Below the pieces are notes generated by a model, which saw only the letters and a list, made by a program, of their open reading frames with translations, had not been told where the DNA came from and made no database searches. A stretch of 64,000 nt of DNA from Thermoplasmata archaeon (GTDB taxonomy: Archaea; Thermoplasmatota; Thermoplasmata; Lutacidiplasmatales; UBA184). Positions 21,648-46,476 of the stretch are shown in pieces (within the stretch, counting starts at the first letter, position 1; every line of letters begins with the position of its first letter). The position numbers and the translations under genes are program-made. The stretch is taken from NCBI GenBank assembly GCA_035622275.1, contig DASPVQ010000029.1, positions 1-64,000 on the forward strand, written 5' to 3'.

Positions 21648-22784
21648 CTAGATCGGGAACGCCCGCAGCGGCCAGCGGGACTCGAAGTCCTCGGGACCCA
21701 GCAACCGGTCGATCTGGGGGAGGGCGGCCTCGAGCGCCCCCACGCGAGGTTCGAAGCCGGCCCGCCGGGTGTAGGGAGCGACCCAGACGATCGACCCGAC
21801 CCGCGGGCGGAGACGGGCCAGCTCTCGGGCGACCTCGTCGGTCTCCCCCAGGTCCCAGCCGTCGCTCAGGATGACGAGCGTGGTCTGCTCGCGCAGGGTC
21901 CCGCCGAAGCGCCGCACGAACTCCCCGAGGGAGCGGCCGATCCGGGTCCCGCCGTCCGCGCCGTCGATCCGCCGGCTCACGGTCTCGAGCGCGCGTCGGT
22001 AGCCGAAGCGGCGCACGTCGGCGGTGATCTCCTCGACCCGCGTGCTGAACGCGAAGACCCGTCCTCGTCGCGACGTCCGTTCGAGCGCGTGGACCAGGCC
22101 GAAGAATCGGCTCTCGTGCTCGCGCATGGACCCGCTGACGTCCCAGAGCAGGACGAACTCCGCGCGCGTCGGCCGGGGGCGGGCCCGACGCAGCTCGAGC
22201 AGCTCCCCGCTGTGATGGATGCTCAAGCGGATCGTGTCGCCCAGCTCGACGCGGCCGTGACGCGAACGGGTGCGGCGACGGCCCGGTAGCCGCGCCGATT
22301 CGCGGCGAAACCGGCGCGCGCCGCGTCGCAGGGCCCGCAGCTCGCGGTCGGCGAGCGCGGACAGCGCGTGCGGCCGTCGCGGCGCGCTCATGCTGTAGGT
22401 CCCCAGTGGCACCGCGACCAGGACCGGCTCGTCGCGCTCGAAACGACGCCGGGCAGCGGTCCCGGCCGGAGGGCGCGGGGCCTTCGGCCGGAGCGCGCGG
22501 ACCTCCGAGCCCGGCCGCGGCCGCGCACCGGCCGCACCGCCCTCCCGGAAGAACGCGTCGAACTCCGCGGCGACGGCGGCGGCCTCGGTCGGCGACTTCG
22601 CCAGCGTGACCGTCGCGGCCTCGCGCCACTGCCGTCGGTCGAATGGGTCCACGACCGCCGCTGCGGCCGCGAAGTCAAGCTCGGCCCCGGTGCCGACCGG
22701 GATCCCCGCACGCCGCAGGTGGGACCCGAACGCGGCGATCCGATCGATCAGCCGCCGCTCGATCGCGCGAGCGTCGAACGCCAC
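21648..22784 (-). CDS. coxE: CoxE-like VWA-domain protein for CO dehydrogenase maturation
   Basis: The 378-residue protein belongs to the CoxE group of von Willebrand A proteins. The metal-ion-dependent adhesion site DVSGSM is at residues 215-220, with the later Thr and Asp positions in DGGTRIGRSL and LSDGWD. The N-terminal 120 residues match the CoxE type, with a variable basic linker between. In aerobic CO-oxidisers CoxE works with the AAA+ ATPase CoxD to mature the Cu-S-Mo centre of the large subunit. Here it follows coxD with five bases between them, in one transcript. Related VWA-MoxR pairs mature other enzymes, but the coxMSLG genes 3 kb away make this assignment likely. Confidence 0.85.
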   Translation of the reverse strand: MAFDARAIERRLIDRIAAFGSHLRRAGIPVGTGAELDFAAAAAVVDPFDRRQWREAATVTLAKSPTEAAAVAAEFDAFFREGGAAGARPRPGSEVRALRPKAPRPPAGTAARRRFERDEPVLVAVPLGTYSMSAPRRPHALSALADRELRALRRGARRFRRESARLPGRRRTRSRHGRVELGDTIRLSIHHSGELLELRRARPRPTRAEFVLLWDVSGSMREHESRFFGLVHALERTSRRGRVFAFSTRVEEITADVRRFGYRRALETVSRRIDGADGGTRIGRSLGEFVRRFGGTLREQTTLVILSDGWDLGETDEVARELARLRPRVGSIVWVAPYTRRAGFEPRVGALEAALPQIDRLLGPEDFESRWPLRAFPI

Positions 22785-22789
22785 AGAAT

Positions 22790-23701
22790 CTACCCCAGCA
22801 GGGCGGCAATGCGGTCGGGTCCGATCGAACGCAGGTCCTGGGCGTCCTTGACGAGGAACCCGAGCGTCGCCTCGATCGTCTCCGGATCGAGCTGGCGGCG
22901 CCCCAGCGAGAGCAGCGCGGCGGCCCAGTCGAGCGTCTCGGCGACCCCGGGGCGCTTGGCGAGCTCGGGCTCCGAACGCAGCCGCTGCACGAAGCCCACC
23001 AGGCTCCGGGCGAGCGCCGGTGCGAGGTCCGGAAGGCGACGCCGGACGATGGCGACCTCCTTCTCGACGTCCGGGTAGTCGAGGTAGACGTACAGGCAGC
23101 GGCGCTTTAGCGCGTCGCTCAGCTCGCGGGTGCGGTTGGAGGTGATCACGACGAGCGGGATCCGCTTCGCTCGGATCGTGCCCAGCTCGGGGATCGTCAC
23201 CTGGAATTCGGAAAGGAACTCGAGCAGCAGACCCTCGAACTCCTCGTCCGCGCGGTCGATCTCGTCGATGAGGAGGACCGGGCGGTGCGCGCCGTCCCCT
23301 TCGAGCGCCCGGACGAGGGGTCGCTTGAGCAGGAAGCGCTCGCTGAAGACCTCCTTTTCTAGGCGGGCATCGGCGCCATCGCGCTCGTGCAGGCGGATCG
23401 TCAGGAGCTGGCGCGGGTAGTCCCAGTCATAGAGCGCCGAGCGGGCGTCCAGGCCCTCAAAGCACTGGAGCCGCAGGAGCTCGACGCCGGTGGCCGCGGC
23501 GAGCGCCTTGGCGATCTCGGTCTTGCCGCAGCCCGGCTCGCCCTCGACGAGGAGCGGCTTCCCGAGCCGCGCGCTCAGGAAGACGGCCATCGACAGCGGC
23601 GCGTCCGCGAGATAGTTCTGCGCGAGCAGCAACGCGGACACCCCGGGCGCATCGACCCAGGACGACGCATCGCTCGCGCCGGCCCCGTTCGCGGTCGCCA
23701 T
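22790..23701 (-). CDS. coxD: CoxD-like MoxR family AAA+ ATPase
   Basis: The 303-residue MoxR-type ATPase has Walker A GEPGCGKTE (residues 54-62), Walker B LLIDEID (143-149), sensor 1 TSNRTRELSDAL and the arginine-finger phrase LKRRC. CoxD uses ATP to act on apo-CO dehydrogenase, helping to insert sulfur and copper into the active site. It is the first gene of coxD-coxE. The ATG at 23701 is preferred; another in-frame ATG at 23734 would add a basic segment of 11 residues. The upstream region is shared with the divergent moaA. Confidence 0.87.
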   Translation of the reverse strand: MATANGAGASDASSWVDAPGVSALLLAQNYLADAPLSMAVFLSARLGKPLLVEGEPGCGKTEIAKALAAATGVELLRLQCFEGLDARSALYDWDYPRQLLTIRLHERDGADARLEKEVFSERFLLKRPLVRALEGDGAHRPVLLIDEIDRADEEFEGLLLEFLSEFQVTIPELGTIRAKRIPLVVITSNRTRELSDALKRRCLYVYLDYPDVEKEVAIVRRRLPDLAPALARSLVGFVQRLRSEPELAKRPGVAETLDWAAALLSLGRRQLDPETIEATLGFLVKDAQDLRSIGPDRIAALLG

Positions 23702-23774
23702 CGGCCTCCAAAGCCGCCGTCGGCGAATGAACATTTCCCCGCGACCGATCGGCGGCCTCCGAGCCGTCGCGCAA

Positions 23775-23783
23775 GCCTATACC
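23775..23783 (+). promoter_or_regulatory. TATA-like element for moaA, leaderless spacing
   Basis: GCCTATACC is centred 27 bases before the GTG at 23806. This supports the GTG as start codon and a leaderless transcript. Confidence 0.55.
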
Positions 23784-23805
23784 CTCTCTGGACGTCCGGT
23801 CCGGC

Positions 23806-24777
23806 GTGCTGGTCGACCGCTTCGGCCGAGGGGTCACGGACCTGCGGGTCAGTGTGACCAAGCGCTGCAACTTCGGCTGCATCTACTGCCACGACGAGGG
23901 CCTCGGGCCGGTCGATCGCCCCCGCGCCCCCCACGCCGAGGAGATGTCGCCGGTCGAGATCGAGCGGATCGTCCGCGTGGCGCGCGAGTTCGACATCCGT
24001 TCGGTGAAGTTCACCGGCGGTGAGCCGCTGGTCCGCCACGACATGGAGGAGATCGTCGACCGCACCGTGCGACACATGGACGACGTCTCTCTGACGACGA
24101 ACGGGTCGATGCTCGCCGCGCGCGCCGAGGCGCTGCGGAACGCCGGCCTGAAGCGGATCAACGTCTCGATCGACTCGCTCGACCCGGCGGCGTTCCGGGA
24201 GATCCGTCGCGGGGCGCTCGCGCCGGTGCTGCGGGGCATCGAGCGGGCGCTGCACGTGGGCCTCAAGCCGGTGAAGCTGAACATGGTCGTCTTCCGCCCC
24301 ACGGTCGAGCATATCCCGGAGATGATCCGGTTCGTCAGCCGGAACGAAGGGCTCAAGCTGCAGCTGATCCAGTTCATGCCCGAGCTCGTGGGACCGAAGG
24401 ATTGGTCCGTCGACATCGATTCCGTCAAGGGCTGGCTCGCGCGCCGCGCCGACCGCGTGCTGGTGCGCGAGATGCACCACCGCCGCATCTACCAGTTCGG
24501 CGGCGCGGAGGTGGAGGTCGTCGACCCGGTCTATAACCGGGAGTTCTGCCAGAACTGCCACCGGATCCGGGTGACGCACCGCGGGGAGCTCAAGGGCTGT
24601 CTCAACCGCAACGACGACCTGATCCCGACGCGGGGCCTGGACGATCGGGAGATCCGGCAGGCGTTCCGGACGTGCGTCGCCGAGCGGGTCCCGTACTACG
24701 GAGCCTACGTCCGGGACCATCCGGTGCGTGATCCGTCCGCCGCGCCCCTGCTCCAGCTGGCGCCCGCGCCGGACTGA
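23806..24777 (+). CDS. moaA: GTP 3',8-cyclase, molybdopterin biosynthesis
   Basis: The 323-residue radical SAM enzyme has the CxxxCxxC cluster at Cys21, Cys25 and Cys28 (VTKRCNFGCIYC) and the GGEP motif (70-73). The second 4Fe-4S site of MoaA is Cys248, Cys251 and Cys265 (CQNCHRIRVTHRGELKGC). It makes 3',8-cyclo-7,8-dihydro-GTP, the first intermediate of molybdopterin. It sits between the coxDE and xdhC-coxMSLG genes, so it probably supplies cofactor for the CO dehydrogenase. The Gly-Gly C-terminus of bacterial MoaA is absent; the end is Pro/Ala-rich. The start is a GTG placed by a TATA-like element. Confidence 0.92.
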   Translation: MLVDRFGRGVTDLRVSVTKRCNFGCIYCHDEGLGPVDRPRAPHAEEMSPVEIERIVRVAREFDIRSVKFTGGEPLVRHDMEEIVDRTVRHMDDVSLTTNGSMLAARAEALRNAGLKRINVSIDSLDPAAFREIRRGALAPVLRGIERALHVGLKPVKLNMVVFRPTVEHIPEMIRFVSRNEGLKLQLIQFMPELVGPKDWSVDIDSVKGWLARRADRVLVREMHHRRIYQFGGAEVEVVDPVYNREFCQNCHRIRVTHRGELKGCLNRNDDLIPTRGLDDREIRQAFRTCVAERVPYYGAYVRDHPVRDPSAAPLLQLAPAPD

Positions 24778-24804
24778 CCCGGCCGCGCGGCGTCCCGGCG
24801 CGGG

Positions 24805-25656
24805 TCAGGCGCCGTCCGTCCGGTCCGTGGACGGGCGACGCCCCGTCGCCTTGTCGTAGTGGGTCTGGATGACCTCCGCGAGGATGGCCACCCCGAGCTC
24901 CTCGGGCGTCTTCGCGCCGATGTCGAGCCCGATCGGCGCGTGCAGGGCCCGAACGAACTCGGGAGGAACACCGCGCCGGACCAGCTCCTCGGTGTCCTGG
25001 CGCAGCCGGTGTCGGCTCGCGAGCAGCCCGACGAACCGCAGCGGAACGTGCGAGAGCGACTCGAGGACGGCGACGTCCCGCTCGCCCTTGGTGAGGACGA
25101 TCACCGAGTCCAGAGCGCCGAGGCCCAGGCGGTGGACGTCCACGGTCGACTCCCGCAGCAGCTCGTGCGGCGCCTCGCTGAGCGACGGGTTCGGATCGAT
25201 CACGATCACTTCGAAGCCGAGCCGCATGCCGAGATGCACCAGCGCCTCCTCGACGTCGTCGCGACCGCCCTGGCCCACGATCACCAGCCGGCGGCTCGGC
25301 AGCATCGGCTCGATGTAGAGCTCGAGCGTCCCGCCGCAGTTCGTCTGGACCCAGATCTCATTGGGATCGGTCCCGCGCGCGGTGCCGGCGAGCGACGCCT
25401 CCGTGTCCACGAGGTGCACCCGCAGGACGCGTGGCTCGCCGAGCTCGAGGGCCTCGAGCGCGCCCGCGACGACGGGTCCTTCCGGACAGCCGCCCCCGAG
25501 CGTCCCCGCGACGATCGCTCCGCTCGGAGCGATCAGGATCTTGAACCCGGGCTTCGCGAGCGTCGAGCCTTCGGTTCGAGTGACGGTCGCGATCGCGAAC
25601 GGCTCGCGTCGCTCCACGAGCTGGCCGACGTGGCGCGCGAACTGCGCGGGCTGCAT
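24805..25656 (-). CDS. XdhC/CoxF-family molybdenum hydroxylase maturation protein
   Basis: The 283-residue protein has both XdhC domains: an N-terminal part with FAIATVTRTEGSTLAKPGFK, GGGCPEGPV and QTNCGGTLELYIEP (Cys about residue 107), and a C-terminal Rossmann-like part with LVIVGQGG and FVGLLASRHR. Proteins of this family bind molybdenum cofactor, help to sulfurate it and hand it to xanthine or CO dehydrogenase-type enzymes. Its gene is divergent from coxM, with a 129-base shared region. A second XdhC unit is part of the fusion protein at 31215-32939, so the locus has two paralogues, perhaps with different steps or partners. Confidence 0.88.
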   Translation of the reverse strand: MQPAQFARHVGQLVERREPFAIATVTRTEGSTLAKPGFKILIAPSGAIVAGTLGGGCPEGPVVAGALEALELGEPRVLRVHLVDTEASLAGTARGTDPNEIWVQTNCGGTLELYIEPMLPSRRLVIVGQGGRDDVEEALVHLGMRLGFEVIVIDPNPSLSEAPHELLRESTVDVHRLGLGALDSVIVLTKGERDVAVLESLSHVPLRFVGLLASRHRLRQDTEELVRRGVPPEFVRALHAPIGLDIGAKTPEELGVAILAEVIQTHYDKATGRRPSTDRTDGA

Positions 25657-25785
25657 CCGGGCGTCGGACCGCCGACGCGTATCTACCGTTTCGGGTGTCC
25701 GACCGGCGGCGCGGCGCCGGCGTCTGAGAAGGGTTCATAACTCTCCGACCCCTCGCCGACGCGCGGCGTGTCGCCGCCCTGAACC

Positions 25786-26661
25786 ATGTATCCACCGAGC
25801 TTCGACTACTACGCGCCGACCAGCCTGGAGGAAGCGATTCGGCTGCTCGACCAGCACCAGGGAGAAGCCAAGGTGCTCGCCGGAGGGCAGAGCCTCATCG
25901 GCATGATGAAGCTCCGCCTGGCGCAACCCGGGGCGCTGATCGACATCAATCGCGTGCCCAACCTTGCCTACGTGCGGGAGGACGGAGCGTTCCTGCGGAT
26001 CGGGGCGCTCACCCGGATCAACGAGCTCCACGCGAGCGACGTCGTCCGGGCCCGCTACGGCGCGCTGTTCGATGCCTCGGGGGAGATCGCCGACCCCACG
26101 GTCCGCAACTGGGGGACGGTCGGCGGCAACGCCTCGCACGGCGACCCGGGCAACGATCTCCCGGCGTGCCTGATGGCGCTGGACGCGCAGTACCAGGTCC
26201 AGGGACCGAAGGGCTCGCGCGCGATACCGGCCCGGCAATTCTACCAGGACTCCTTTGTCACCGCGCTCCAGCCGAACGAGGTGCTCACCGAGGTAAGCGT
26301 GCCGAAGGCCGGCGCCGGCTCGGGCAGCGCCTACTCGAAGATGGAACGCAAGGTCGGCGACTTCGCGACCGCCGCGGTCGCGGTGAGCCTCCGTCTTGGC
26401 GCCGACGGCGCGATCGCCAAGGCCGGCATCGGCCTCACCAACGTGGGGCCCACGGCGATCTACGCCGCGGCGGCCGCGGACGCGCTCGCCGGAAAAAGCG
26501 GCAACGCCGCGGAGGTCGAACGCGCCGCCGGTCTCGCGGCCGACGCGGCCCGGCCGATCGGCGACAACCGGGGTCCGGTCGACTTCAAGAAGGACATGGT
26601 CCGGGTCTGGACCCGTCGCACGGTCGCGAGCGCGATCGCCCGGGCCAAGGGAGGGCACTGA
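25786..26661 (+). CDS. coxM: Aerobic CO dehydrogenase, FAD-binding medium subunit
   Basis: The 291-residue flavoprotein carries the two FAD motifs of CoxM at the family positions: AGGQS at residues 32-36 and TVGG at 111-114 (AGGHS and TIGG in Oligotropha). It carries electrons from the 2Fe-2S subunit through FAD to the quinone pool or another acceptor. It is the first gene of the coxM-coxS-coxL-coxG operon; the order M-S-L is that of form I (true CO-oxidising) enzymes, while form II loci are usually S-L-M. A weak TATA-like GGTTCATAAC lies at 25732-25741. Confidence 0.93.
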   Translation: MYPPSFDYYAPTSLEEAIRLLDQHQGEAKVLAGGQSLIGMMKLRLAQPGALIDINRVPNLAYVREDGAFLRIGALTRINELHASDVVRARYGALFDASGEIADPTVRNWGTVGGNASHGDPGNDLPACLMALDAQYQVQGPKGSRAIPARQFYQDSFVTALQPNEVLTEVSVPKAGAGSGSAYSKMERKVGDFATAAVAVSLRLGADGAIAKAGIGLTNVGPTAIYAAAAADALAGKSGNAAEVERAAGLAADAARPIGDNRGPVDFKKDMVRVWTRRTVASAIARAKGGH

Positions 26662-26663
26662 CG

Positions 26664-27197
26664 ATGGCGATCGACGTCGAGGAGGTCGCGACGGCCGGCA
26701 GCCCCAACGGGCGGCGGACGGTGCACATCAGCGTCAACGGCGTGGCGCATCGCTCCACGATCGACACCCGCATGCTGCTCGTCAGCTACCTTCGCGAGCG
26801 CCTCCGTCTCACCGGCACGCACATCGGCTGCGATACGGCGCACTGCGGCGCCTGCACCGTCCTCGTCGACGGGGTCGCCGCGAAGTCCTGCAACCTGCTC
26901 GCGGTGATGGTCGACGGCCGGAGCGTCACGACCGTCGAGGGGCTCGAGACCGGCGGCAAGCTGCACCCGGTGCAGGAGGGGTTCACGAAGGAGCACGGAC
27001 TGCAGTGCGGCTACTGCACGCCCGGCATGATGCTCGCGAGCGTCGCCCTGCTGTCGAAGAACCCGAATCCGACCGAGGACGAGATCCGCCGGGGCCTGTC
27101 GGGCAACCTGTGCCGCTGCACGGGCTACGTCAACATCGTCAAAGCGGTCCAGTACGCGTCGACCCAGCTCCGCGAGGCCCCGAAGGGAGGGACCTGA
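26664..27197 (+). CDS. coxS: Aerobic CO dehydrogenase, 2Fe-2S small subunit
   Basis: The 177-residue protein binds two 2Fe-2S clusters. The plant-type ferredoxin motif is Cys56, Cys61, Cys64 and Cys76 (GCDTAHCGAC...KSC). The helical-domain motif is Cys115, Cys118, Cys150 and Cys152 (QCGYCTPG...NLCRC). All eight ligands are present. It passes electrons from the Mo centre of CoxL to FAD in CoxM. It begins two bases after the coxM stop and two bases before coxL. An N-terminal extension of about 18 residues before the first strand is slightly longer than usual. Confidence 0.94.
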   Translation: MAIDVEEVATAGSPNGRRTVHISVNGVAHRSTIDTRMLLVSYLRERLRLTGTHIGCDTAHCGACTVLVDGVAAKSCNLLAVMVDGRSVTTVEGLETGGKLHPVQEGFTKEHGLQCGYCTPGMMLASVALLSKNPNPTEDEIRRGLSGNLCRCTGYVNIVKAVQYASTQLREAPKGGT

Positions 27198-27199
27198 GC

Positions 27200-29545
27200 A
27201 TGGCGGACGCCGCGCCGGTCCCCGGCGGCATCGGCCAGTCGTTGGCCCGCAAGGAAGACGTCCGCTTCATCCGAGGCAAGGGCAACTACGTCGACGACGT
27301 GAACCTCCCCGGCATGCTGTTCATGGACCTCGTGCGCAGCCCGTACGCGCACGCGAAGATCACGGCGCTCCGCAAGGAGCCCGCGCTCAAGGTCCCCGGT
27401 GTGCTCGCGGTCATCACCGGCGCGGACCTGGCGGCGGCGAAGCTCGCCTGGATGCCGACGCTGATGTCGGACACCCAGATGGTCCTTCCCACCGACACGG
27501 TCATGTTCCAGGGTCAGGAGGTCGCTGCGGTCGTTGCCACGGACCGCTACGCGGCGGCCGACGGGGTCGCGGCGGTGGAGGTCGACTACGAGCCGCTGCC
27601 GGTCGTTATCGATCCGTTCAAGGCCCTCGAGCCCGGCGCTCCCGTCCTGCGCACGGACAAGGGCAAGAAGGACAACCACATCTGGCACTGGGAGGTCGGC
27701 GACCGGGCCGCCACGGAGGCGGCGCTCAAGTCGAGCGCCGTCGTCGCCCGCGAGCGTCTGTACATCCCGCGGATCCACGTCGCGTCGATCGAGACCTGCG
27801 GCTGCGTCGCCCAGGTCGACGTCAACGGCAAGCTGACCGTGTGGATGACGACCCAGGCCCCGCACGCCATCCGCACCGTCTTCGCGCTCGTCAGCGGCCT
27901 ACCCGAGAACAACATCCGCATCATCTCGCCGGACATCGGCGGGGGCTTCGGCGGCAAGGTGCCGGTCTATCCGGGCTACGTGATCGCGGTCGTCGCCGCG
28001 CTCACCACGGGCAAGCCGGTGAAGTGGATCGAGGACCGGACCGGTAATCTGACCGCCGACTCGTTCGCGCGCGACTACCACATCGAGGCCGAGGTCGGCG
28101 CGACCAAGGACGGGAAGGTCACCGCGCTGCGGGTGAAGACCCTGGCCGACCACGGCTACACCGACGCCGCGGCCAACCCGTCGAAGTTCCCCGCGGGACT
28201 CTTCCACATCATCACCGGCTCGTACCCGTTCCAGCACGCGTTCGTCGAGGTCGATGCGGCGTACACGAACAAGCCGCCCGGGGGCATCGCGTACCGCTGC
28301 TCGTTCCGTGTCACCGAGGCCGTGTTCGCGATCGAGCGGCTGATGGACAGCCTCGCGCACCAGCTCCAGCTCGACCCGGCCGAGCTGCGCTTGAGGAACT
28401 TCATCCCGCCGGAGGCGTTCCCGTTCACGTCGGCGCTCGGCTGGACCTATGACAGCGGCAACTACGCCGGCGCGCTGCGCAAGGCGATGGACATGATCGG
28501 CTACGAGGCGCTGCGCAAGGAACAGGCGGCCAAGCGCGCGAAGGGCGAGCTCATGGGCCTCGGGATCTCGAGCTTCACCGAGATCGTCGGCGCGGGCCCT
28601 TCCAAGACGTTCGACATCCTCGGCATCAAGATGTTCGACTCGGCCGAGGTCCGGATCCACCCGACCGGCAAGGTGCTCGCCCGGTTCGGCACGAAGTCCC
28701 AGGGCCAGGGCCACGAGACCACGTACGCCCAGATCCTGGCCGAGGAGCTCGGCATCCCGGCCGCGGACATCTCGGTCGAGGAGGGCGACACCGACACCGC
28801 GCCCTACGGTCTCGGCACCTACGCGAGCCGCAGCACGCCGACGGCGGGCGCCGCCGCGGCGATCGCGGCCCGGAAGATCCGCGAGAAGGCGGCGAAGATC
28901 GCCGCCCACCTTCTCGAGGTGTCGCCGAACGACATCGAGTGGAAGGACCACAAGTTCCAGGTCAAGGGCGTCCCCGAGAAGTCCAAGACGATGGCCGATG
29001 TCGCGTTCGCGGCCTACACCAACCACCCGCAGGGCATGGAGGCCGGGCTCGAGGCGGTGGACTACTACGACCCGCCGAACATGACCTACCCGTTCGGGAG
29101 CTACATCTGCGCGGTCGACGTCGACAAGGAGACCGGCCAGGTGAAGGTCCGGCGCTTCGTCGCGATCGACGACTGCGGCACGATCATCAACCCGATGATC
29201 GTCGACGGCCAGATCCACGGCGGGCTGACGATGGGCTTCGCGCCCGCGCTCCTCGAGGAGATCCCGTACGACGCGCAGGGCAACAGCCGGGCGCCGTCGT
29301 TCCTGGAGTACCTCCTGCCCACGGCGGTGGAGACGCCGAAGTGGGAGACGGGCAAGACCGTGACGCCGAGCCCCCACCACCCGCTGGGCGCCAAGGGCGT
29401 CGGGGAGTCCGCCACCGTCGGGGCACCCGCCGCGATCGTCAACGCGGTCATCGATGCGCTGCAGCCCTACGGGGTGACGAACATCGACATCCCGATCTCG
29501 CCGTACAAGGTCTGGCAGGCGATCCACTCGAAGGACCCGAAGTAG
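27200..29545 (+). CDS. coxL: Form I aerobic CO dehydrogenase, molybdenum large subunit
   Basis: The 781-residue catalytic subunit oxidises CO with water to CO2 at a Cu-S-Mo centre bound to molybdopterin cytosine dinucleotide. The active-site loop reads AYRCSFR (residues 364-370) with Cys367 as the predicted copper ligand; this AYxCSFR signature defines form I CoxL, in contrast to the AYRGAGR loop of form II. The catalytic Glu736 lies in GAKGVGESATVGAP, and the cofactor-binding stretch IGGGFGGK is near residue 251. Length and domain order match Oligotropha CoxL (about 809 residues). The gene starts two bases after the coxS stop. Confidence 0.95.
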   Translation: MADAAPVPGGIGQSLARKEDVRFIRGKGNYVDDVNLPGMLFMDLVRSPYAHAKITALRKEPALKVPGVLAVITGADLAAAKLAWMPTLMSDTQMVLPTDTVMFQGQEVAAVVATDRYAAADGVAAVEVDYEPLPVVIDPFKALEPGAPVLRTDKGKKDNHIWHWEVGDRAATEAALKSSAVVARERLYIPRIHVASIETCGCVAQVDVNGKLTVWMTTQAPHAIRTVFALVSGLPENNIRIISPDIGGGFGGKVPVYPGYVIAVVAALTTGKPVKWIEDRTGNLTADSFARDYHIEAEVGATKDGKVTALRVKTLADHGYTDAAANPSKFPAGLFHIITGSYPFQHAFVEVDAAYTNKPPGGIAYRCSFRVTEAVFAIERLMDSLAHQLQLDPAELRLRNFIPPEAFPFTSALGWTYDSGNYAGALRKAMDMIGYEALRKEQAAKRAKGELMGLGISSFTEIVGAGPSKTFDILGIKMFDSAEVRIHPTGKVLARFGTKSQGQGHETTYAQILAEELGIPAADISVEEGDTDTAPYGLGTYASRSTPTAGAAAAIAARKIREKAAKIAAHLLEVSPNDIEWKDHKFQVKGVPEKSKTMADVAFAAYTNHPQGMEAGLEAVDYYDPPNMTYPFGSYICAVDVDKETGQVKVRRFVAIDDCGTIINPMIVDGQIHGGLTMGFAPALLEEIPYDAQGNSRAPSFLEYLLPTAVETPKWETGKTVTPSPHHPLGAKGVGESATVGAPAAIVNAVIDALQPYGVTNIDIPISPYKVWQAIHSKDPK

Positions 29546-29559
29546 GCTCCGACCCGGCG

Positions 29560-30000
29560 ATGCACATCGAGGGCGACTTCCGCGTCCGCGCTCCGCCCGA
29601 GAAGGTGTACGCCTTCTTCCTCGATCCGGTCGGGTTCATCGACTGCCTGGACGACCCGCACCAGGTGCACGCGGTCGATACGGACCACTTCGAGGGCACC
29701 GTGACGACCGGCGTCGCCTTCATCCGGGGCACCTTCCGCATCCGCGGCACCTACGGGGAGCGGACCCCACCGACCGCCCTCACCGCCCGGATCAACGGCA
29801 CGGGCCTCGGCAGCGGGATCGACGCTCAGCTCTCGATCGCGATCGCGGCGGCCGAGGGCCAGAGCGCCGTCCACTGGCAGGGCGAGGTCCAGCTGAGCGG
29901 GCCGGTGGCCACGATCGGCGAGCGGATGGTGCGCTCGACCGTCGACAAGAAGGCGGACGGACTCTTCGAGAACGCGCGCAAGCGGCTCGAGGGCGCCTAG
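29560..30000 (+). CDS. coxG: CoxG-like SRPBCC-fold protein
   Basis: The 146-residue protein matches the CoxG (carbon monoxide dehydrogenase subunit G) family of START-like folds: IEGDFRVRAPPEKVYAFFLDP at the N-terminus and a central beta sheet ending in ERMVRSTVDKKADGLFENARKRL. In bacteria CoxG helps to anchor the CO dehydrogenase at the membrane and is needed for electron delivery to the respiratory chain, possibly by carrying quinone. It is the last gene of the coxMSLG operon, 14 bases after coxL. Its stop overlaps the stop of the convergent YbaK-HAD gene by three bases. Confidence 0.88.
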   Translation: MHIEGDFRVRAPPEKVYAFFLDPVGFIDCLDDPHQVHAVDTDHFEGTVTTGVAFIRGTFRIRGTYGERTPPTALTARINGTGLGSGIDAQLSIAIAAAEGQSAVHWQGEVQLSGPVATIGERMVRSTVDKKADGLFENARKRLEGA

Positions 30001-31169
30001 GCCTCGCCGAGGAGCTCGGCCGCGCTCGCGAGATCGGCCAGGCGTCGGTCGACCGGCCGCTCCGCGGGAAGCGGGCCGTAGCGCGCGACGTACGCGGTCC
30101 GGCCGCCGAGGAGGCCGGCGGTCTCGAGGTCGTACTCGTAGCTCGCCGACACGTGGAGCGTGCTCCGGGGATCCGCCCCGGTCGCTCGGAGGAACCGGAT
30201 CCAGTGGGCCGGCGCCGGCTTGTACGACCGCACCTCCTCCGCCGTGACGGTTCGATCGACCTCGAGATCGTGCCGGGCCAGCGTCGCGGCCAGCAGGTCC
30301 CGGTCGATGTTCGACAGGATCGCGACGCGGCGCCCCCGCGCGCGCAGCTCGCGCAGCAGCGGCGCCGCGTCGGCGAACGCGGGCCACTCCGGCACCGAGT
30401 CCACGAACTCCGCCGCGGCGCCGGGAGCGATCCGATGCCCGCGCTGCTCGCCGACCCGCCCCACCGTCGCCGCCACGATCTCGCGATACGGACGGTACGC
30501 TGCGCCCTCGACGGCCGGCTCGGCCGCAAGGTAGGCTGCGAAGAAGGCGTCGCCGGACTCGGCCGAGTCGACCCACCCGCGGCGGCGGGCCGCCTCGATC
30601 AGGCCGGCCCGCCAGTCGATTAGGGTGCCGTAGCAGTCGAAGGTGACCCACCGAGCTCCGGGGGCGGGACCCGGCGGCCGCGCGTCGAGCGGCACCGGGC
30701 GCGCCCGGGTGAGCCGGAGCAGCTCGAGGGGTTTCAGCCGGAACACCGCGTGCGGGTGGCCGGCCGCGGCCCAGAGCTCGCTCTCGGCCAGCAGCTCGTA
30801 GTCGACGTACGCGGGGATCGACCGGGCGTGGCCGGCGGGCGGGACCCCGCCGATGGCGTAGCCGGTCACGGACCGCACGAACTCCGGGTCGGCCCGCTCC
30901 AGTGGAACGCCCACCAACTCGGCCGCACGCGCGGGATCGACCCGGTTCGACCCCGCGACCAGGAACAGGACCGGCGGCCCTTCGGCCCCCGCCCGGAAGA
31001 CGAGCGACTTGACGATCTGGCGGACCTGGCACCCCACCGCCCGCGCCGCGTCGGCCGCGGTGCGTGTCGACTCCGGCAGTTCCAGGACCCGCCGCGTCAG
31101 ACCCTGCGCGGCGAGGTGGGCCGCGAACCGGCGAGCGGAAGGTTCGCGCAGCGGCTCGGGCTCGGTCAC
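29997..31169 (-). CDS. YbaK-type aminoacyl-tRNA deacylase fused to HAD hydrolase
   Basis: The 390-residue protein joins two domains in one uninterrupted frame. Residues 10-155 are a YbaK/ProX-type editing domain with VKSLVFRA (Lys54) and the loop IGGVPPAGH (106-114), a family that removes wrong amino acids such as Cys or Ala from tRNAPro. Residues 172-390 are a haloacid dehalogenase-like hydrolase with the nucleophile Asp178 in FDCYGTLID, motif II ILSNID, motif III Lys in RSYKPAP and an unusual motif IV HVSASYEYDLET. The linker is Pro-rich. I do not know this pairing as a common architecture. A role with the cox genes is not evident; the gene is wedged between coxG and the MocA-XdhC fusion. 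Confidence 0.8.
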   Translation of the reverse strand: MTEPEPLREPSARRFAAHLAAQGLTRRVLELPESTRTAADAARAVGCQVRQIVKSLVFRAGAEGPPVLFLVAGSNRVDPARAAELVGVPLERADPEFVRSVTGYAIGGVPPAGHARSIPAYVDYELLAESELWAAAGHPHAVFRLKPLELLRLTRARPVPLDARPPGPAPGARWVTFDCYGTLIDWRAGLIEAARRRGWVDSAESGDAFFAAYLAAEPAVEGAAYRPYREIVAATVGRVGEQRGHRIAPGAAAEFVDSVPEWPAFADAAPLLRELRARGRRVAILSNIDRDLLAATLARHDLEVDRTVTAEEVRSYKPAPAHWIRFLRATGADPRSTLHVSASYEYDLETAGLLGGRTAYVARYGPLPAERPVDRRLADLASAAELLGEA

Positions 31170-31214
31170 GGGGAAACGACGGGCGCCCTCGGAGGATCGA
31201 CGGCCCGCGCTCGG

Positions 31215-32939
31215 TCAGCCGGAGCGCGGCGCGCGGGCAAGGTAGCGCTTCGGGGCCCGAACGAACTTTCGGCGGCAGCCCTCGGCGCAGAAGTAGTAGG
31301 TGGTTCCGAGGTGCTCGGCGCGCAGCGGTGTCGAGGTCTCCACCGTCATGCCGCAGACCGGGTCGACCGCCGCGCCGGGCGCCGGAGCCGCTGGGGCCGG
31401 ACCGCCCTCCGCAGGGAGGGGCGGAACCGCGGTCCGTCGCACGCGGGTGATCTCGGCCAGCACGCTCAGGGCGATCTCCTCGGGCGTGCTCGCGGCGATG
31501 TCGATCCCGGCCGGATTGCGGATCCGGCCGATCTGCGCCTCCGAGATGCCGTCCTCCCGCAGCGCGTCGAACACCGACCGGGCCCGCGTGCGGCTCGCGA
31601 CGAGCCCCGCGAAGGCGACGGGCGCTCGGGCGATGGGGGCGAGGGCCGACTCGTCGTACTTCCCCATGCTGGCCACGACCGCGTAGGTCGTCGGGGAAAG
31701 GTGGGCGGAGAGCGCCTCGAGCCCGCCGACGACCTCGTCGACCTCGGGCAGCTCGGTCGGGTCCGCGCCGGGGGCGACGAGCACCACCCGGAAGCCGAGG
31801 ACCCCGCCCAGGGTCGCGAGGCTGACCGCGACCGGGGAGTCGCCGACGATCAGGAGTTCGGGCTTGGCGACGTTCGGTTCGATGAAGATCTCCACGGTTC
31901 CTCCGCTCTGACAGACCATGTTGCGTTCGACGACGCCCTCGGGGCTTTCGGACCCGCCCGGTTCCACGCCCGGAGCGACCCGGAGCAGGCGAGGGGACTG
32001 TGCGGCGATCGTCGCGAGGCACTCCGAGACGAGCAGGTGCTCGGTGCAGGCGCCACCGACCCATCCCGTGTGCGAACCGTCGGCTCGGACGACCGCCTTG
32101 TACCCCGGACGCCCCGAGGTGGGGCGGACGACGCGGACCACGGTGGCGAGGGCGAACGGCTGACCCTGGCGGCGCATCTCCGCGGCGATGGCGTCGATGT
32201 CCGGTGCCCGGCGCAGGCGGCGGGTGCGGGGGACCGCACCGGAGGTGGTATGGAGCCGTCGGCGCGGCTCGGAAACCCGGTCGAGCAGGTGACGCAGCGG
32301 CTCGCCGCCCTTCAGCGCGGCGGCGAGACGGGCGAGCTCGTCCTCGGTGTCCACGTCCACGAGTATCCCGGGGTCGTCCACCGGGACCTCGCGGATCTCC
32401 TCGGGATGGCGGGGGAACATCGCGCGACAGCCCACGTCCCCGTCGACACGCTCGAGCTCCGGGGCGAGCCGTAGGTCGAACAGCACCGGGTTGCCGCGGA
32501 CGCCGTCGTAGGTCGGGATGAAGATCGATCCGTCGCCCGCGCGTGCCCGATCGACGAGGGTCCGGATCGTGTCGGCGGCCACGAACGGCTGGTCGGCGAG
32601 CACGATCAGGGCGAGGTCGGAGTCGCTCGCGGCCCGGACCCCCCGCCGCAGCGAACCGCTCATGCCGCGCGTGAACTCCGGATTCTCCACGACGGTGACC
32701 TGGCGCGACCGGATCGCCGCTCGGACCTCCGCCCCGCGGTGGCCTACCACGACGACCGTCCGGTCGACGCCAGCCTCCGCGACCGAGGAGAGGGTGCGAT
32801 CGATCAGTCGGACGCCGCCGATCGAAGCGAGCGGCTTGGAGCGGCCGAACCGCGAGCTCGTGCCCGCGGCCAGGACGACCGCGGTCACCCGGGAGCGGGC
32901 CGTCGCGGCCCCGGCGGTTCGCGCGCGCGCCGCGACCAT
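31215..32939 (-). CDS. MocA-XdhC-YHS fusion, molybdenum cofactor cytidylation/insertion factor
   Basis: This 574-residue protein has three parts. Residues 18-205 are a MobA/MocA-like nucleotidyltransferase with LAAGTSSRFGRSK (23-35) and ADQPF (115-119), expected to attach CMP to molybdopterin. Residues 248-500 are an XdhC/CoxF unit (ALATVVRVVRPTSGRPGYK, GACTEHLL, CQSGGTVEIFIEP with Cys343, FAGLVASR). Residues 525-567 are a YHS domain with DPVCGM and YYFCAEGC, a Cys motif found in copper- and metal-handling proteins. It could join cofactor cytidylation, chaperoning and metal or copper handling for the Cu-S-Mo CO dehydrogenase (inference). The ATG at 32939 lies 27 bases from a TATA-like element. 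Confidence 0.88.
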   Translation of the reverse strand: MVAARARTAGAATARSRVTAVVLAAGTSSRFGRSKPLASIGGVRLIDRTLSSVAEAGVDRTVVVVGHRGAEVRAAIRSRQVTVVENPEFTRGMSGSLRRGVRAASDSDLALIVLADQPFVAADTIRTLVDRARAGDGSIFIPTYDGVRGNPVLFDLRLAPELERVDGDVGCRAMFPRHPEEIREVPVDDPGILVDVDTEDELARLAAALKGGEPLRHLLDRVSEPRRRLHTTSGAVPRTRRLRRAPDIDAIAAEMRRQGQPFALATVVRVVRPTSGRPGYKAVVRADGSHTGWVGGACTEHLLVSECLATIAAQSPRLLRVAPGVEPGGSESPEGVVERNMVCQSGGTVEIFIEPNVAKPELLIVGDSPVAVSLATLGGVLGFRVVLVAPGADPTELPEVDEVVGGLEALSAHLSPTTYAVVASMGKYDESALAPIARAPVAFAGLVASRTRARSVFDALREDGISEAQIGRIRNPAGIDIAASTPEEIALSVLAEITRVRRTAVPPLPAEGGPAPAAPAPGAAVDPVCGMTVETSTPLRAEHLGTTYYFCAEGCRRKFVRAPKRYLARAPRSG

Positions 32940-32960
32940 GGTCGACGGAGCGGGGGCGGG

Positions 32961-32970
32961 ACTGTAAGCT
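32961..32970 (-). promoter_or_regulatory. TATA-like element for the MocA-XdhC-YHS gene
   Basis: The minus strand reads AGCTTACAGT, centred 27 bases before the ATG at 32939, which is leaderless spacing. The same patch may serve the divergent gene at 32986. Confidence 0.4.
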
Positions 32971-32985
32971 CTTCGCGCGAGCGTT

Positions 32986-33621
32986 ATGGCCGCGGCGCGT
33001 GTGCGCGGCCCGGCGATGGCCGATCCACCGGGTACGGACGGGATCCCCGCGGACTGGGTGACGCAGCCGGACCAGATGTCGGCTCCCGCCCGCCGGGTCC
33101 TGGACCTGTTCGACGGCGAGCGCTTGCTCCGGTGCTGGCGCACCGCGCGCGGGTTCCTCGTGCTCACCGATCTTCGGTGCGTCCACGTGCTGCGTCGACC
33201 CGAGATCCTGCGGCGGGGCGAATGGATCGTCGGCCCGGAACTCTTCTTCTACAACTGCCGACCCGCCGGGGTGCTCTTCGGCCGCTTCATCGAGATGGGC
33301 GAGAGGTTCGAGGACGTCGGCGCCGAGATCCGGGTCGCGGTGGACGACCCCCCTGCGGTCGCCGAGGCGATCAACGCCGCCCTCGGTCCCGGCGCGAAGG
33401 CGTGGCAGGCCCGCCGGGAACGCACGCGTCTCCAGATGGAGGCGCGCAAGCGCCAGCGCGACGCGATCACCGCGGCGGTCGCGGAAGGCAAGGCGCCGCC
33501 GGTGCCGATGGTGCCGTGCGACTTCTGCGGGAACCCCGTCCCCGCGTCCGCCCGGCGCTGCCCGTACTGCGGGGCGCCGCGCGGCGGAGCCGTCGCGCGC
33601 GGCGGGAGCGCGCTTCCTTAA
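32986..33621 (+). CDS. PH-like domain protein with C-terminal zinc ribbon
   Basis: The 211-residue protein is not of known function. Residues 30-120 look like a bacterial PH-like domain (DGERLLRCWRTARGFLVLTDLRCVHVLRR). A charged helix follows (about 135-165), then a zinc ribbon with CDFCGNPVPASARRCPYCG. The ribbon could bind zinc and mediate protein or nucleic-acid contacts. An ATG at 33016 is an alternative start that leaves the conserved part intact and fits the upstream AT-rich patch better. It precedes the SufR-like regulator by 48 bases but the latter has its own TATA element. Confidence 0.72.
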   Translation: MAAARVRGPAMADPPGTDGIPADWVTQPDQMSAPARRVLDLFDGERLLRCWRTARGFLVLTDLRCVHVLRRPEILRRGEWIVGPELFFYNCRPAGVLFGRFIEMGERFEDVGAEIRVAVDDPPAVAEAINAALGPGAKAWQARRERTRLQMEARKRQRDAITAAVAEGKAPPVPMVPCDFCGNPVPASARRCPYCGAPRGGAVARGGSALP

Positions 33622-36204: not shown

Positions 36205-36825
36205 TCAGAGTGGCAGTATCTTACGCCCGTAGTTCCAGTTCGTGACGTCCGCCGTCCCGGTCAGCCAGGCGAGGAATCCCGTCAGGATGATCTCGCCGCC
36301 GATGATCTGGGCCTCCTGCGTCGTCAGGGGGTGCCCGCCCGCGGCTGCGTAGAACAGCCAGGTGAGCAGCAGGAAGGCGATCGTCAGCGTCAGGAACACC
36401 AGGAAGACGCCGATCCCGTGCTTGTAGGCGTTGAGCAAGAACGTCAGGGTCACAAGGAACCACACGAACTGGAAGGCCGCGACCGCGTAGTCGTTCGTGA
36501 TCGCGCCGTACTGGACGTTGAACCAGTTAAACGCCCACCAGAACATTCCGTATGACGCGAACGCAGAGCCCGCGAACATGTTCCCCTTCCGGAACGCGAT
36601 GATCCCGGCGAGGAACTGTGCCGTCCCTCCGTAGAACAGGGCCATCGAAAGGACCGGGCCGACCCCGATCCATCCCCCCACGAAGAGCCCGGCCAGGATG
36701 GTGGTCATTCCGAACCCGAACAACCCGAGGGTCGCAGGGCTCGCCCACCATTCCGGCTTCTCCTCCACTCTTGGCGGAGCTTCGGTCATCCCATGCGCTG
36801 TTTCCATCGTCGCGGTGGCCGGCAT
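36205..36825 (-). CDS. Acetate/succinate permease (GPR1/FUN34/YaaH family)
   Basis: The 206-residue protein has six membrane helices and the hallmark phrases of the SatP/YaaH family: SPATLGLFGFG in place of NPAPLGL, YGGTAQFLAGIIAFRKGN, and FASYGMFWWAF. These proteins move acetate and other small monocarboxylates or succinate by proton symport or as channels. The ATG at 36825 is preferred over a GTG at 36840, since the TATA-like element at 36851-36860 would start the RNA near 36830. A supply of acetate to the acetyl-CoA synthetase encoded at 44362-46476 is likely. Confidence 0.88.
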   Translation of the reverse strand: MPATATMETAHGMTEAPPRVEEKPEWWASPATLGLFGFGMTTILAGLFVGGWIGVGPVLSMALFYGGTAQFLAGIIAFRKGNMFAGSAFASYGMFWWAFNWFNVQYGAITNDYAVAAFQFVWFLVTLTFLLNAYKHGIGVFLVFLTLTIAFLLLTWLFYAAAGGHPLTTQEAQIIGGEIILTGFLAWLTGTADVTNWNYGRKILPL

Positions 36826-36974: not shown

Positions 36975-37250
36975 GTGGAAGACCGCAACGAGCTCGCCCG
37001 GGTCGTCTTCGGCCACACGCGCGTGATCCTGACGCGAGATCTGTCGGTCATGAACCCCAACCTGGTCGTCGGTTCCCAGGGTCTCGTGATCGGCAAGCTG
37101 GCTAACTACACGCTGAAGGTCGCCTTTCCCCAGGTCACGGTCGGTGTCAACTGGAAGGACTGCGACATCGTCGAGGGGAAAACCGGGATGCCCACGCTGG
37201 CCGAGCAGCCGCGGGTGATCCCGAAGCCGCGCCAGATGGGTGAAGAATAA
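36975..37250 (+). CDS. Small protein of unknown function (91 residues)
   Basis: I do not recognise this protein. It is soluble, with alternating beta-type segments (VVFGHTRVILTRDL, NLVVGSQGLVIGKL, TLKVAFPQVTVGVNW) and one Cys. A beta-sandwich or SH3-like fold is possible. Codon use and a well-placed TATA-like element argue that it is a real gene. It starts with GTG and has its own promoter, opposite the acetate permease. The convergent HAD gene ends 17 bases after it. Confidence 0.65.
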   Translation: MEDRNELARVVFGHTRVILTRDLSVMNPNLVVGSQGLVIGKLANYTLKVAFPQVTVGVNWKDCDIVEGKTGMPTLAEQPRVIPKPRQMGEE

Positions 37251-44361: not shown

Positions 44362-46476
44362 CTAGACGTCCTTGCCGAACTCCTTGATGTCGGCCGGGCC
44401 CTCCTTCTTCTGGACCGGCCCGGCGCCCTGGACCTGGACGCGGATCTGCTCGACGACCTCGGGGTTCGCGAGCGTCGTGATGTCGCCGTAGTCCATGTGG
44501 TTGGAGATCGAGGCGAGCACGCGGCGCATGATCTTCCCCGACCGGGTCTTCGGCATGTCCGGCACGATCCGCACGGTCTTCGGTCGGGCGATCTTCCCGA
44601 TGACGGTCTCGATCGCGTGGCTGACCTTGTCGGCGATCGCCTGGTCGGCCTTCACGCCCGGCTTGAGCGCGACGTACACCTCGGGGACGCGACCCCGCTC
44701 GGCATCCACGATCGGCACCACCGCGGCCTCGGCGACCTCGGGGACCGTCAGGCACGCCGACTCGATCTCCTTCGTCCCGAGTCGGTGGCCGGCGACGTTG
44801 ATCACGTCGTCGACGCGCCCGAGGATGCGGATGTAGCCGTCCGGCGCCCACATCGCGCCGTCGCCGGCGAAGTAGGGCCAGTCGTGCCAGTCGGTGCTCG
44901 ACTTGTTCCTGTTGTACTTGGCGTAGTAGGTCTTCACGAAGCGGTCCGGGTCGCCCCAGATCGTCTGGAAGATCCCGGGCCACGGGTTGCGGATGCAGAT
45001 GTTCCCGGCCTTGCCCGCGCCCATCGGGATCTCGCGCGCCTGCTCGTCGTAGATGATCGGGTAGATCCCGGGCATTGGCGGCCCCGCGCTGCCCGGCTTC
45101 ATGGCATCGATGCCCGGCTTCGTGGTGCAGAGGAACCCGCCGGTCTCGGTCTGCCACCAGGTGTCGGTGATCGCGGCCTCGCCGCGGCCGACGACCTCGT
45201 AGTACCACTTCCAGGCTTCCGGTTCGATCGGCTCGCCGACCGTGGTCATGCACTTGAAGCTGTGGCGGTATTTCTTCGGCTCGTCCGGACCGAGCTTGCG
45301 CAGCGACCGGATCGCGGTCGGGCTCGTGTGGAAGATGGTGACGCCGAGCCGCTCGGCGATCCGCCACGGCCGCCCCGCGTCCGGGAACGTCGGGACGCCC
45401 TCGTACATCACGGTCGTCGCCGCGTTCGCGAGCGGCCCGTAGACGATGTAGGAGTGGCCGGTGATCCAGCCGATGTCGGCCATGCACCAGTAGACGTCCG
45501 TCGTGTGGATGTCCTGGATGTACCGCGACGTGCCCGTGACGTAGGCGAGGTAGCCGCCGGTCGAGTGCTGGCAGCCCTTGGGCTTGCCGGTCGACCCGCT
45601 CGTGTACATGAGGAACAGCGGGTCCTCCGCGGGGATCGAGACCGGCTCGACGCGCTGGCCCCGGTACTGCTTGAGGACCTCGTCGACGTAGAAGTCGCGG
45701 CCCTCGACCAGGGGGGTCGGCGAGGCGGCCTTGTCGCGCAGGCGCTTCCAGACCAGGACCTTCTCGACCTTGGTACCGTCCTCGGCCGCCTTCTTGCACG
45801 CGATGTCGGCGTTCACCTTGTGGTCGAGCAGCTTGCCGCTGCGGTAGTAGCCGTCCATGGAGATCAGGACGCGGCTGCCGCTGTCGACGATCCGCGTCCC
45901 GCACGCCTCGCCGCTGAAGCCGCCGAAGACGACCGAGTGGATCACGCCGAGCCGGGCGCAGGCGAGCATCGTGATCGGCAGCTCCGGCACCATCGGCATG
46001 TGGATGGTGACCCGGTCGCCTTTCTTGAGGCCGCAGAAGTCGCGCAGGAGCGCGGCCATCTCGTTGACGCGATTGTACAGCTCCTGGTATGTCACGACCA
46101 CCGTCGGCTCGTCCTCGGGCTCGGGCACCCAGACGATCGCCGACTTGTTGCGGTACTTCTCGAGATGGCGGTCGACGCAGTTGTAGCTCGCGTTCAGCTT
46201 GCCGCCGACGAACCACTTCCAGAACGGCGCCTTGCTCGTGTCAAGCGTCGTGTGCCAGTAGCGATCCCAGCTCAGGAGGTCCGCGAACTCTCGCCAGCAC
46301 TCCGGGAAGTGCTTCTCGCTGAACCGCTCGACGACCCCCGGGTCGGTCCAGTTCGCCTGACCGACGAACTTGGGACTCGGATAGTAGAGCGCTTCCTCCT
46401 TCCAGTGAACCGCGATCTCGGCCTCGGACAGGCGGGACTCGTCGTCTTTCGACACCTGGCTTCGAGCTTCTGCCAT
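44362..46476 (-). CDS. acs: Acetyl-CoA synthetase (AMP-forming)
   Basis: The 704-residue adenylating enzyme makes acetyl-CoA from acetate, ATP and CoA. It carries the P-loop-like YTSGSTGKPKG, the motif DTWWQTETGG that shapes the acetate pocket (the Trp blocks longer acids), the hinge region YFAGDGAMW...ILGRVDDVINVAGHRLGT and the C-terminal catalytic Lys in PKTRSGKIMRR, which is also the lysine acetylated in bacterial Acs. Length is normal. The ATG at 46476 is chosen because the TATA-like element would start RNA near 46492; an ATG at 46539 lies upstream of it. It pairs functionally with the acetate permease at 36.2 kb. Confidence 0.94.
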   Translation of the reverse strand: MAEARSQVSKDDESRLSEAEIAVHWKEEALYYPSPKFVGQANWTDPGVVERFSEKHFPECWREFADLLSWDRYWHTTLDTSKAPFWKWFVGGKLNASYNCVDRHLEKYRNKSAIVWVPEPEDEPTVVVTYQELYNRVNEMAALLRDFCGLKKGDRVTIHMPMVPELPITMLACARLGVIHSVVFGGFSGEACGTRIVDSGSRVLISMDGYYRSGKLLDHKVNADIACKKAAEDGTKVEKVLVWKRLRDKAASPTPLVEGRDFYVDEVLKQYRGQRVEPVSIPAEDPLFLMYTSGSTGKPKGCQHSTGGYLAYVTGTSRYIQDIHTTDVYWCMADIGWITGHSYIVYGPLANAATTVMYEGVPTFPDAGRPWRIAERLGVTIFHTSPTAIRSLRKLGPDEPKKYRHSFKCMTTVGEPIEPEAWKWYYEVVGRGEAAITDTWWQTETGGFLCTTKPGIDAMKPGSAGPPMPGIYPIIYDEQAREIPMGAGKAGNICIRNPWPGIFQTIWGDPDRFVKTYYAKYNRNKSSTDWHDWPYFAGDGAMWAPDGYIRILGRVDDVINVAGHRLGTKEIESACLTVPEVAEAAVVPIVDAERGRVPEVYVALKPGVKADQAIADKVSHAIETVIGKIARPKTVRIVPDMPKTRSGKIMRRVLASISNHMDYGDITTLANPEVVEQIRVQVQGAGPVQKKEGPADIKEFGKDV

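Follow-up and report, generated by a model that had tools for sequence, protein, structure and literature searches.

A form I aerobic carbon monoxide dehydrogenase locus with its own maturation genes in a soil-type Thermoplasmata archaeon

A 64-kb stretch of DNA, hereafter the window, carries a gene cluster that we regard, with a probability of roughly 85%, as encoding a genuine form I aerobic (Mo-Cu) carbon monoxide dehydrogenase (CODH) and a maturation set of its own in a soil-type Thermoplasmata archaeon, where it would act as an energy supplement and would probably stem from a single bacterial acquisition. In enzymes of this family, CoxL carries the Mo-S-Cu centre that oxidises CO, and the electrons leave via CoxS and CoxM. 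If an order of soil archaea possesses a form I enzyme, archaea would have to be counted among the organisms behind the soil CO sink, and the enzyme would hint at how an aerobic heterotroph that has not been cultivated gets through carbon starvation. Among archaea, form I CO oxidisers are known mostly from haloarchaea, with a few thermophiles besides (reviewed in PMC13240472), and earlier reports of CODH in Thermoplasmata concern the form II-like enzymes of acid-mine archaea (PMC3750248). The enzyme type is known, and it is the host group in which it seems undescribed in the literature searched, which left out most subscription papers and all preprints and in which CO oxidation by Lutacidiplasmatales was not found. 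The main text of the paper describing Lutacidiplasmatales, one of whose own genomes (L035) carries the locus, does not mention CO dehydrogenase or coxL, nor does a 2025 survey of Thermoplasmatota mention CO or coxL. Two form I CoxL of Thermoplasmatota (PMC13240472, June 2026), known from one sentence of text, come from the same phylum and likewise fall in clades otherwise dominated by bacteria, but are marine.

Gene content of the locus and identity of CoxL

Nine genes of the aerobic CODH system, recognised from open reading frames and curated models, lie within positions 21648-32939 of the window. At the core of the locus, coxM, coxS, coxL and coxG follow one another on the forward strand, separated by gaps of 2-14 bases. 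The first, coxM (25786..26661), encodes the FAD subunit (291 aa, with FAD_binding_5 and CO_deh_flav_C domains); coxS (26664..27197), between coxM and coxL, the subunit with two [2Fe-2S] clusters (177 aa, Fer2_2 and Fer2); coxL (27200..29545) the Mo-Cu catalytic subunit of 781 aa; and coxG (29560..30000) an SRPBCC-type protein of 146 aa that matches PF06240 COXG at 80.6 bits and has no membrane tail. To the left, on the opposite strand, coxE (21648..22784; a VWA-domain protein of 378 aa, PF05762 VWA_CoxE, 161 bits) adjoins coxD, as it does in Afipia pHCG3. The coxD gene (22790..23701) encodes an AAA+ maturation ATPase of 303 aa with AAA_5 and AAA matches, whose identity to the CoxD proteins from form I loci of bacteria and haloarchaea is 53-57%. 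Between coxD and coxM lie moaA (23806..24777, forward), encoding an archaeal-type GTP 3',8-cyclase of molybdopterin synthesis (TIGR02668 moaA_archaeal, 346 bits, cut-off 325), and a gene for an xdhC/coxI-like insertion factor of 283 aa (24805..25656, reverse; XdhC_CoxI and XdhC_C). To the right, the gene following coxG (29997-31169, reverse) has a product that joins a YbaK-type tRNA-editing domain to a HAD dehalogenase-like domain; it is not known to be linked to CODH. Beyond it, a single gene (31215..32939, reverse) encodes a triple fusion of 574 aa, in which an N-terminal MocA-like NTP_transf_3 domain is followed by XdhC_CoxI, XdhC_C and a C-terminal YHS domain.

Matches to curated models across these genes are not a matter of chance. 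A preliminary description of this DNA had proposed the M-S-L-G order and a surrounding set of coxD, coxE, moaA, two xdhC units and a MocA domain. Both the order and the set are borne out by Pfam and NCBIfam models, with the refinement that the two xdhC units and the MocA domain correspond to one free XdhC and the MocA-XdhC-YHS fusion. Upstream of coxM, inspection by eye yielded no clear candidate for an archaeal promoter.

The translated CoxL contains, exactly as first read, the form I loop AYRCSFR (residues 364-370, encoded at 28289..28309, forward) with Cys367 within GIAYRCSFR, as well as Glu736 within GAKGVGES. This loop fits the general form I pattern (A/S)YRCS(F/L)R, in which the Cys binds copper. 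Against TIGR02416, the model for the large subunit of aerobic CODH, CoxL scores 1230.1 bits (cut-off 991.15), and no other NCBIfam CoxL-type model exceeds its own cut-off. The top four relatives of solved structure are all CO dehydrogenases (1n5w, 1zxi, 1ffu and 8uem, ~1050 bits), and the next one is quinoline 2-oxidoreductase at 495 bits. CoxL shares ~60% identity with its Oligotropha (Afipia) counterpart, and in the alignment its pocket residues match those of Afipia and Thermomicrobium but differ from those of form II. In the collected set of CoxL-like proteins, identity to the window CoxL is at least 57% for form I sequences and at most 46% for those bearing AYRGAGR. The phylogenetic comparison with form I and form II references suggested in the preliminary description took the form of two maximum-likelihood trees of 64-65 CoxL proteins: both place CoxL within the form I clade at 100/100 support, and the form II sequences, including others from the same archaeal class, fall outside it. 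Consistently, the gene order is M-S-L here and S-L-M in the form II references examined, and the maturation genes coxD, coxE and XdhC/CoxF-like stand near coxL, a hallmark of form I; the marks of form II, an AYRGAGR loop and placement in the form II clade, are absent from CoxL.

These data bear directly on the idea that a form II-like Mo hydroxylase (an aldehyde, glyceraldehyde or purine oxidoreductase) has been misread as a CODH, as may have happened with form II-like loci in Thermoplasmata from acid mines. Two points speak for it: CoxM and CoxS obtain their best scores with glyceraldehyde dehydrogenase models, and the host genome encodes two further CoxL-like paralogues at ~30% identity. The subunits nevertheless stay below the glyceraldehyde dehydrogenase cut-offs of NF041018, NF041019 and NF041020 (609/790, 274/350 and 232/290 bits). 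With AYRCSFR instead of AYRGAGR, a TIGR02416 score above cut-off, 100/100 placement in the form I clade and 60% identity to Afipia CoxL, we consider such a misreading highly improbable, and the tree strongly disfavours it. A form II or aldehyde-oxidase identity was rejected on the loop, the model cut-off and the tree. Ferroplasma and Iplasma, acid-mine members of the same archaeal class, possess a Mo hydroxylase that likewise has three subunits and is annotated as an aerobic CODH (PMC3750248), but theirs is a form II-like enzyme with an AYRGAGR loop and putative CO activity, and form II sequences lie outside the clade found here.

The host genome and the distribution of the locus

The window covers positions 1 to 64,000 of a contig of 76 kb, in a genome of 1.73 Mb that is 97.4% complete. 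The host is very probably a Thermoplasmata archaeon of the order Lutacidiplasmatales. The assignment to this order is made because aEF-2, the one marker compared, is closer to that of AcS1-67 (88% identity) than to those of a same-family genome (81%) or a same-order genome (75%). The description of Lutacidiplasmatales was based on Scottish acid-soil MAGs that include AcS1-67 (PMC9287336). Members of the order are reported to have a high G+C content (~69% for the type genus) and to carry their complex IV genes next to those of complex III; here, G+C is 66-75% and even along the window, and the genes for cytochrome b, COX1 and CtaA are adjacent in the host genome.

That the closest non-archaeal CoxL are bacterial, at 72-77% identity, could be taken to mean that the contig, or the cox stretch alone, comes from a bacterium and was wrongly binned with an archaeal MAG. 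Other contigs of the genome encode the archaeal ribosomal protein S3Ae and aEF-2 (above cut-off), and genes for a thermopsin and the archaeal-type MoaA lie on the window contig. The cox locus is syntenic in the same-genus Thermoplasmata archaeon MAGs JOPF061 and JOPF143, of which JOPF061 also shares the flanking genes. Indeed, the named archaeal form I loci come from three MAG naming series (JOPF, AcS and EA), which speaks against misbinning, and their CoxL form one 100/100 clade. The even G+C and the lineage-specific MocA-XdhC-YHS fusion argue in the same direction. Misbinning was therefore rejected on the synteny across three naming series, and we give it hardly any credence; the archaeal, non-bacterial nature of the contig put forward in the preliminary description is upheld.

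Within the genus, the form I locus is patchy. Form I CoxL was found in 16/78 genomes (at least 77% identity; short fragments counted in two), and in 5/25 of the near-complete ones (completeness of 90% or more, contamination of 5% or less). When 390 sampled genomes from the phylum were searched at an E-value of 1e-110, form I came from this genus only; the other matches were 34-43% identical to CoxL, and the best of them (genome G285) has AYRGAGR. Two further CoxL-like genes were noticed in passing. In MAG EA_2, a form II-type cox set (L036:12708-16533), comprising an AYRGAGR CoxL 46% identical to that of the window together with coxS, coxM and xdhC, adjoins the form I locus on the opposite strand. 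Another CoxL-like sequence (G461:C5:5857-8190) shares 50% identity with CoxL of the window, a value that falls in the gap separating form I from form II sequences here.

Three other features of the window were observed away from the locus: a large, presumably secreted protein combining a thermopsin protease domain with PKD domains (1958-5008, reverse), a guanylate/adenylate cyclase catalytic domain followed by TPR repeats (5176-7128, reverse) in this archaeal genome, and a 91-aa protein without a Pfam match (36975-37250, forward) that is 87% conserved in JOPF061.

Origin of the archaeal CoxL

The 11 archaeal CoxL form one clade in both trees (100/99 or better), and this clade is sister, again in both, to three Chloroflexota MAGs, CF_9, CF_38 and CF_143 (100/99 and 99/99). 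Joining the archaeal clade with the haloarchaeal CoxL is rejected by the AU test (p 2e-15), and with it a common origin with the haloarchaeal enzyme. Natronorubrum bangense illustrates the distance: this haloarchaeon shares with the present case an archaeal host, the form I loop, an XdhC-YHS protein and nearby coxD and coxE, but its CoxL is only 57% identical and sits on a separate deep branch, its gene order differs and its MocA is a separate gene. Since the archaeal clade stands beside soil Chloroflexota and far from haloarchaea, inter-domain transfer, with a bacterial origin of the archaeal CoxL, appears likely. Form I coxL occurs across many phyla, and its spread by both horizontal and vertical inheritance has been proposed by Cordero et al. 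(PMC6794299).

Other evidence tempers this reading. Keeping the in-group bacteria together without the archaeal clade is only weakly rejected (AU p 0.037). CoxL of the Chloroflexota sisters, like that of many other bacteria, contains a 3-residue insertion that is missing from the archaea, from Thermomicrobium and from other outer sequences, and in the CoxM tree the archaea form one clade that is not beside the CF Chloroflexota that are sisters in CoxL. With the missing insertion and the discordant CoxM tree taken into account, a bacterial origin is still likely, the Chloroflexota sisters being candidate donors at best and the direction of transfer between the two sister groups tentative. Identities to the window genome for CoxL and aEF-2 fall together (93/94% for JOPF349, 88/93% for JOPF061 and 86/88% for AcS1-67), which fits genes that, once acquired, were mostly inherited vertically and sometimes lost. 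The gene set would then probably have been gained once from a bacterium by an ancestor in the lineage, and subsequently retained along certain branches but lost along the rest.

Among characterised bacteria, Thermomicrobium roseum (Chloroflexota) has a CoxL 70% identical to that of the window, with the AYRCSFR loop, the M-S-L order and an XdhC-YHS gene directly behind coxL; it differs in being a bacterium, in its separate MocA gene and in having no coxD, coxE or coxG within an 18-kb stretch. In Afipia (Oligotropha) carboxidovorans pHCG3, CoxL is 60% identical with the same active-site residues, and coxM-S-L is followed by D-E-F-G; unlike the archaeal locus, this is a one-strand operon that includes MHYT sensor genes, a CoxF without YHS or MocA and a CoxG with a hydrophobic tail.

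The MocA-XdhC-YHS fusion and the predicted physiology

MocA, XdhC and YHS form one protein in 9/9 distinct archaeal form I loci that reach this gene, whereas the fusion occurs in 0 of ~50 bacterial XdhC-YHS proteins. In bacterial form I loci, a YHS domain with conserved cysteines is common at the C-terminus of the CoxF-like XdhC, and MocA has a gene of its own, so the idea of XdhC-YHS as an archaeal novelty was dropped and only the added MocA domain is specific. The XdhC proteins of ~18 non-form I Thermoplasmata loci lack YHS. Across the genus (78 genomes), CoxL is accompanied by the full-length fusion in 15 and stands alone in 1, the fusion stands alone in 2, and both are absent from 60; the three discordant genomes are 59-65% complete. 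This co-occurrence (Fisher p 5e-13, uncorrected for relatedness of the genomes) ties the fusion to the form I enzyme. By analogy with the protein families involved and with the copper role proposed for CoxF (PMC4240915), the MocA part would produce the cytidylylated cofactor and the YHS part would handle copper. The triple fusion offers a way into the question of how the active site of CODH is supplied with copper and cytidylylated molybdopterin.

Altogether, family knowledge leads to a model in which CoxL, carrying a molybdenum-cytosine-dinucleotide cofactor S-bridged to copper on Cys367, would convert CO and water to CO2. Electrons would pass from the two [2Fe-2S] clusters of CoxS to the FAD of CoxM, then to the quinone pool, probably with CoxG, and on to a haem-copper oxidase. 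CoxD would contribute to sulphuration of the Mo site, and copper would be delivered by CoxE and the XdhC-YHS part of the fusion. Activity, affinity, electron path, maturation roles and physiology are all predicted from gene content and homology. A role of CoxG in passing CODH electrons to the quinone pool is cited in PMC13240472. CoxG here lacks the C-terminal extension present in Afipia and Anaeromyxobacter; the CoxG of the sister Chloroflexota and of Armatimonadota is equally short, and the short form was therefore dropped as a special archaeal feature.

The host genome contains genes for the haem-copper oxidase COX1, cytochrome b and CtaA as well as for the 49-kDa subunit of complex I, and it gave no match to RuBisCO. 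The presence of oxidase and complex I genes without a RuBisCO match suggests a carboxydovore, which would gain energy from CO without fixing CO2 through the Calvin cycle, in contrast to Afipia carboxidovorans, a carboxydotroph. Gene content is consistent with CO as an energy supplement, used under organic-carbon limitation and not for autotrophy. Alternatively, CO could be oxidised mainly for detoxification, or uncoupled from respiration, since CoxG has no evident membrane anchor, the futalosine-route menaquinone family PF02621 (the one family searched) was not found in the host genome, and both activity and electron path are predictions. This is unlikely given that coxG lies directly behind coxL, that the genome has oxidase and complex I genes and that form I relatives feed respiration during starvation (PMC6776052, PMC6794299); Thermomicrobium roseum, when starved, was shown experimentally to oxidise CO down to atmospheric levels (PMC6776052). 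With use of CO as an energy supplement as the preferred reading, the presence of a complete bacterial-type CO-oxidising gene set in an archaeon implies that some of these archaea, which have relatives in acid soil, may live partly off trace CO, as many soil bacteria do. A bolder and tentative proposal, which we hold to be possible but somewhat doubtful, is that part of the soil order Lutacidiplasmatales consists of aerobic CO oxidisers whose bacterial form I enzyme was gained once and adapted with a lineage-specific MocA-XdhC-YHS protein that would make the cytidylylated cofactor, help to sulphurate and insert it, and load copper, all from one polypeptide.

The window also encodes a GPR1/FUN34/yaaH-family (acetate-type) transporter (36205-36768, reverse) and, within 10 kb of it, an acetyl-CoA synthetase-like AMP-binding enzyme (44362-46455, reverse), together pointing to possible use of acetate by the host.
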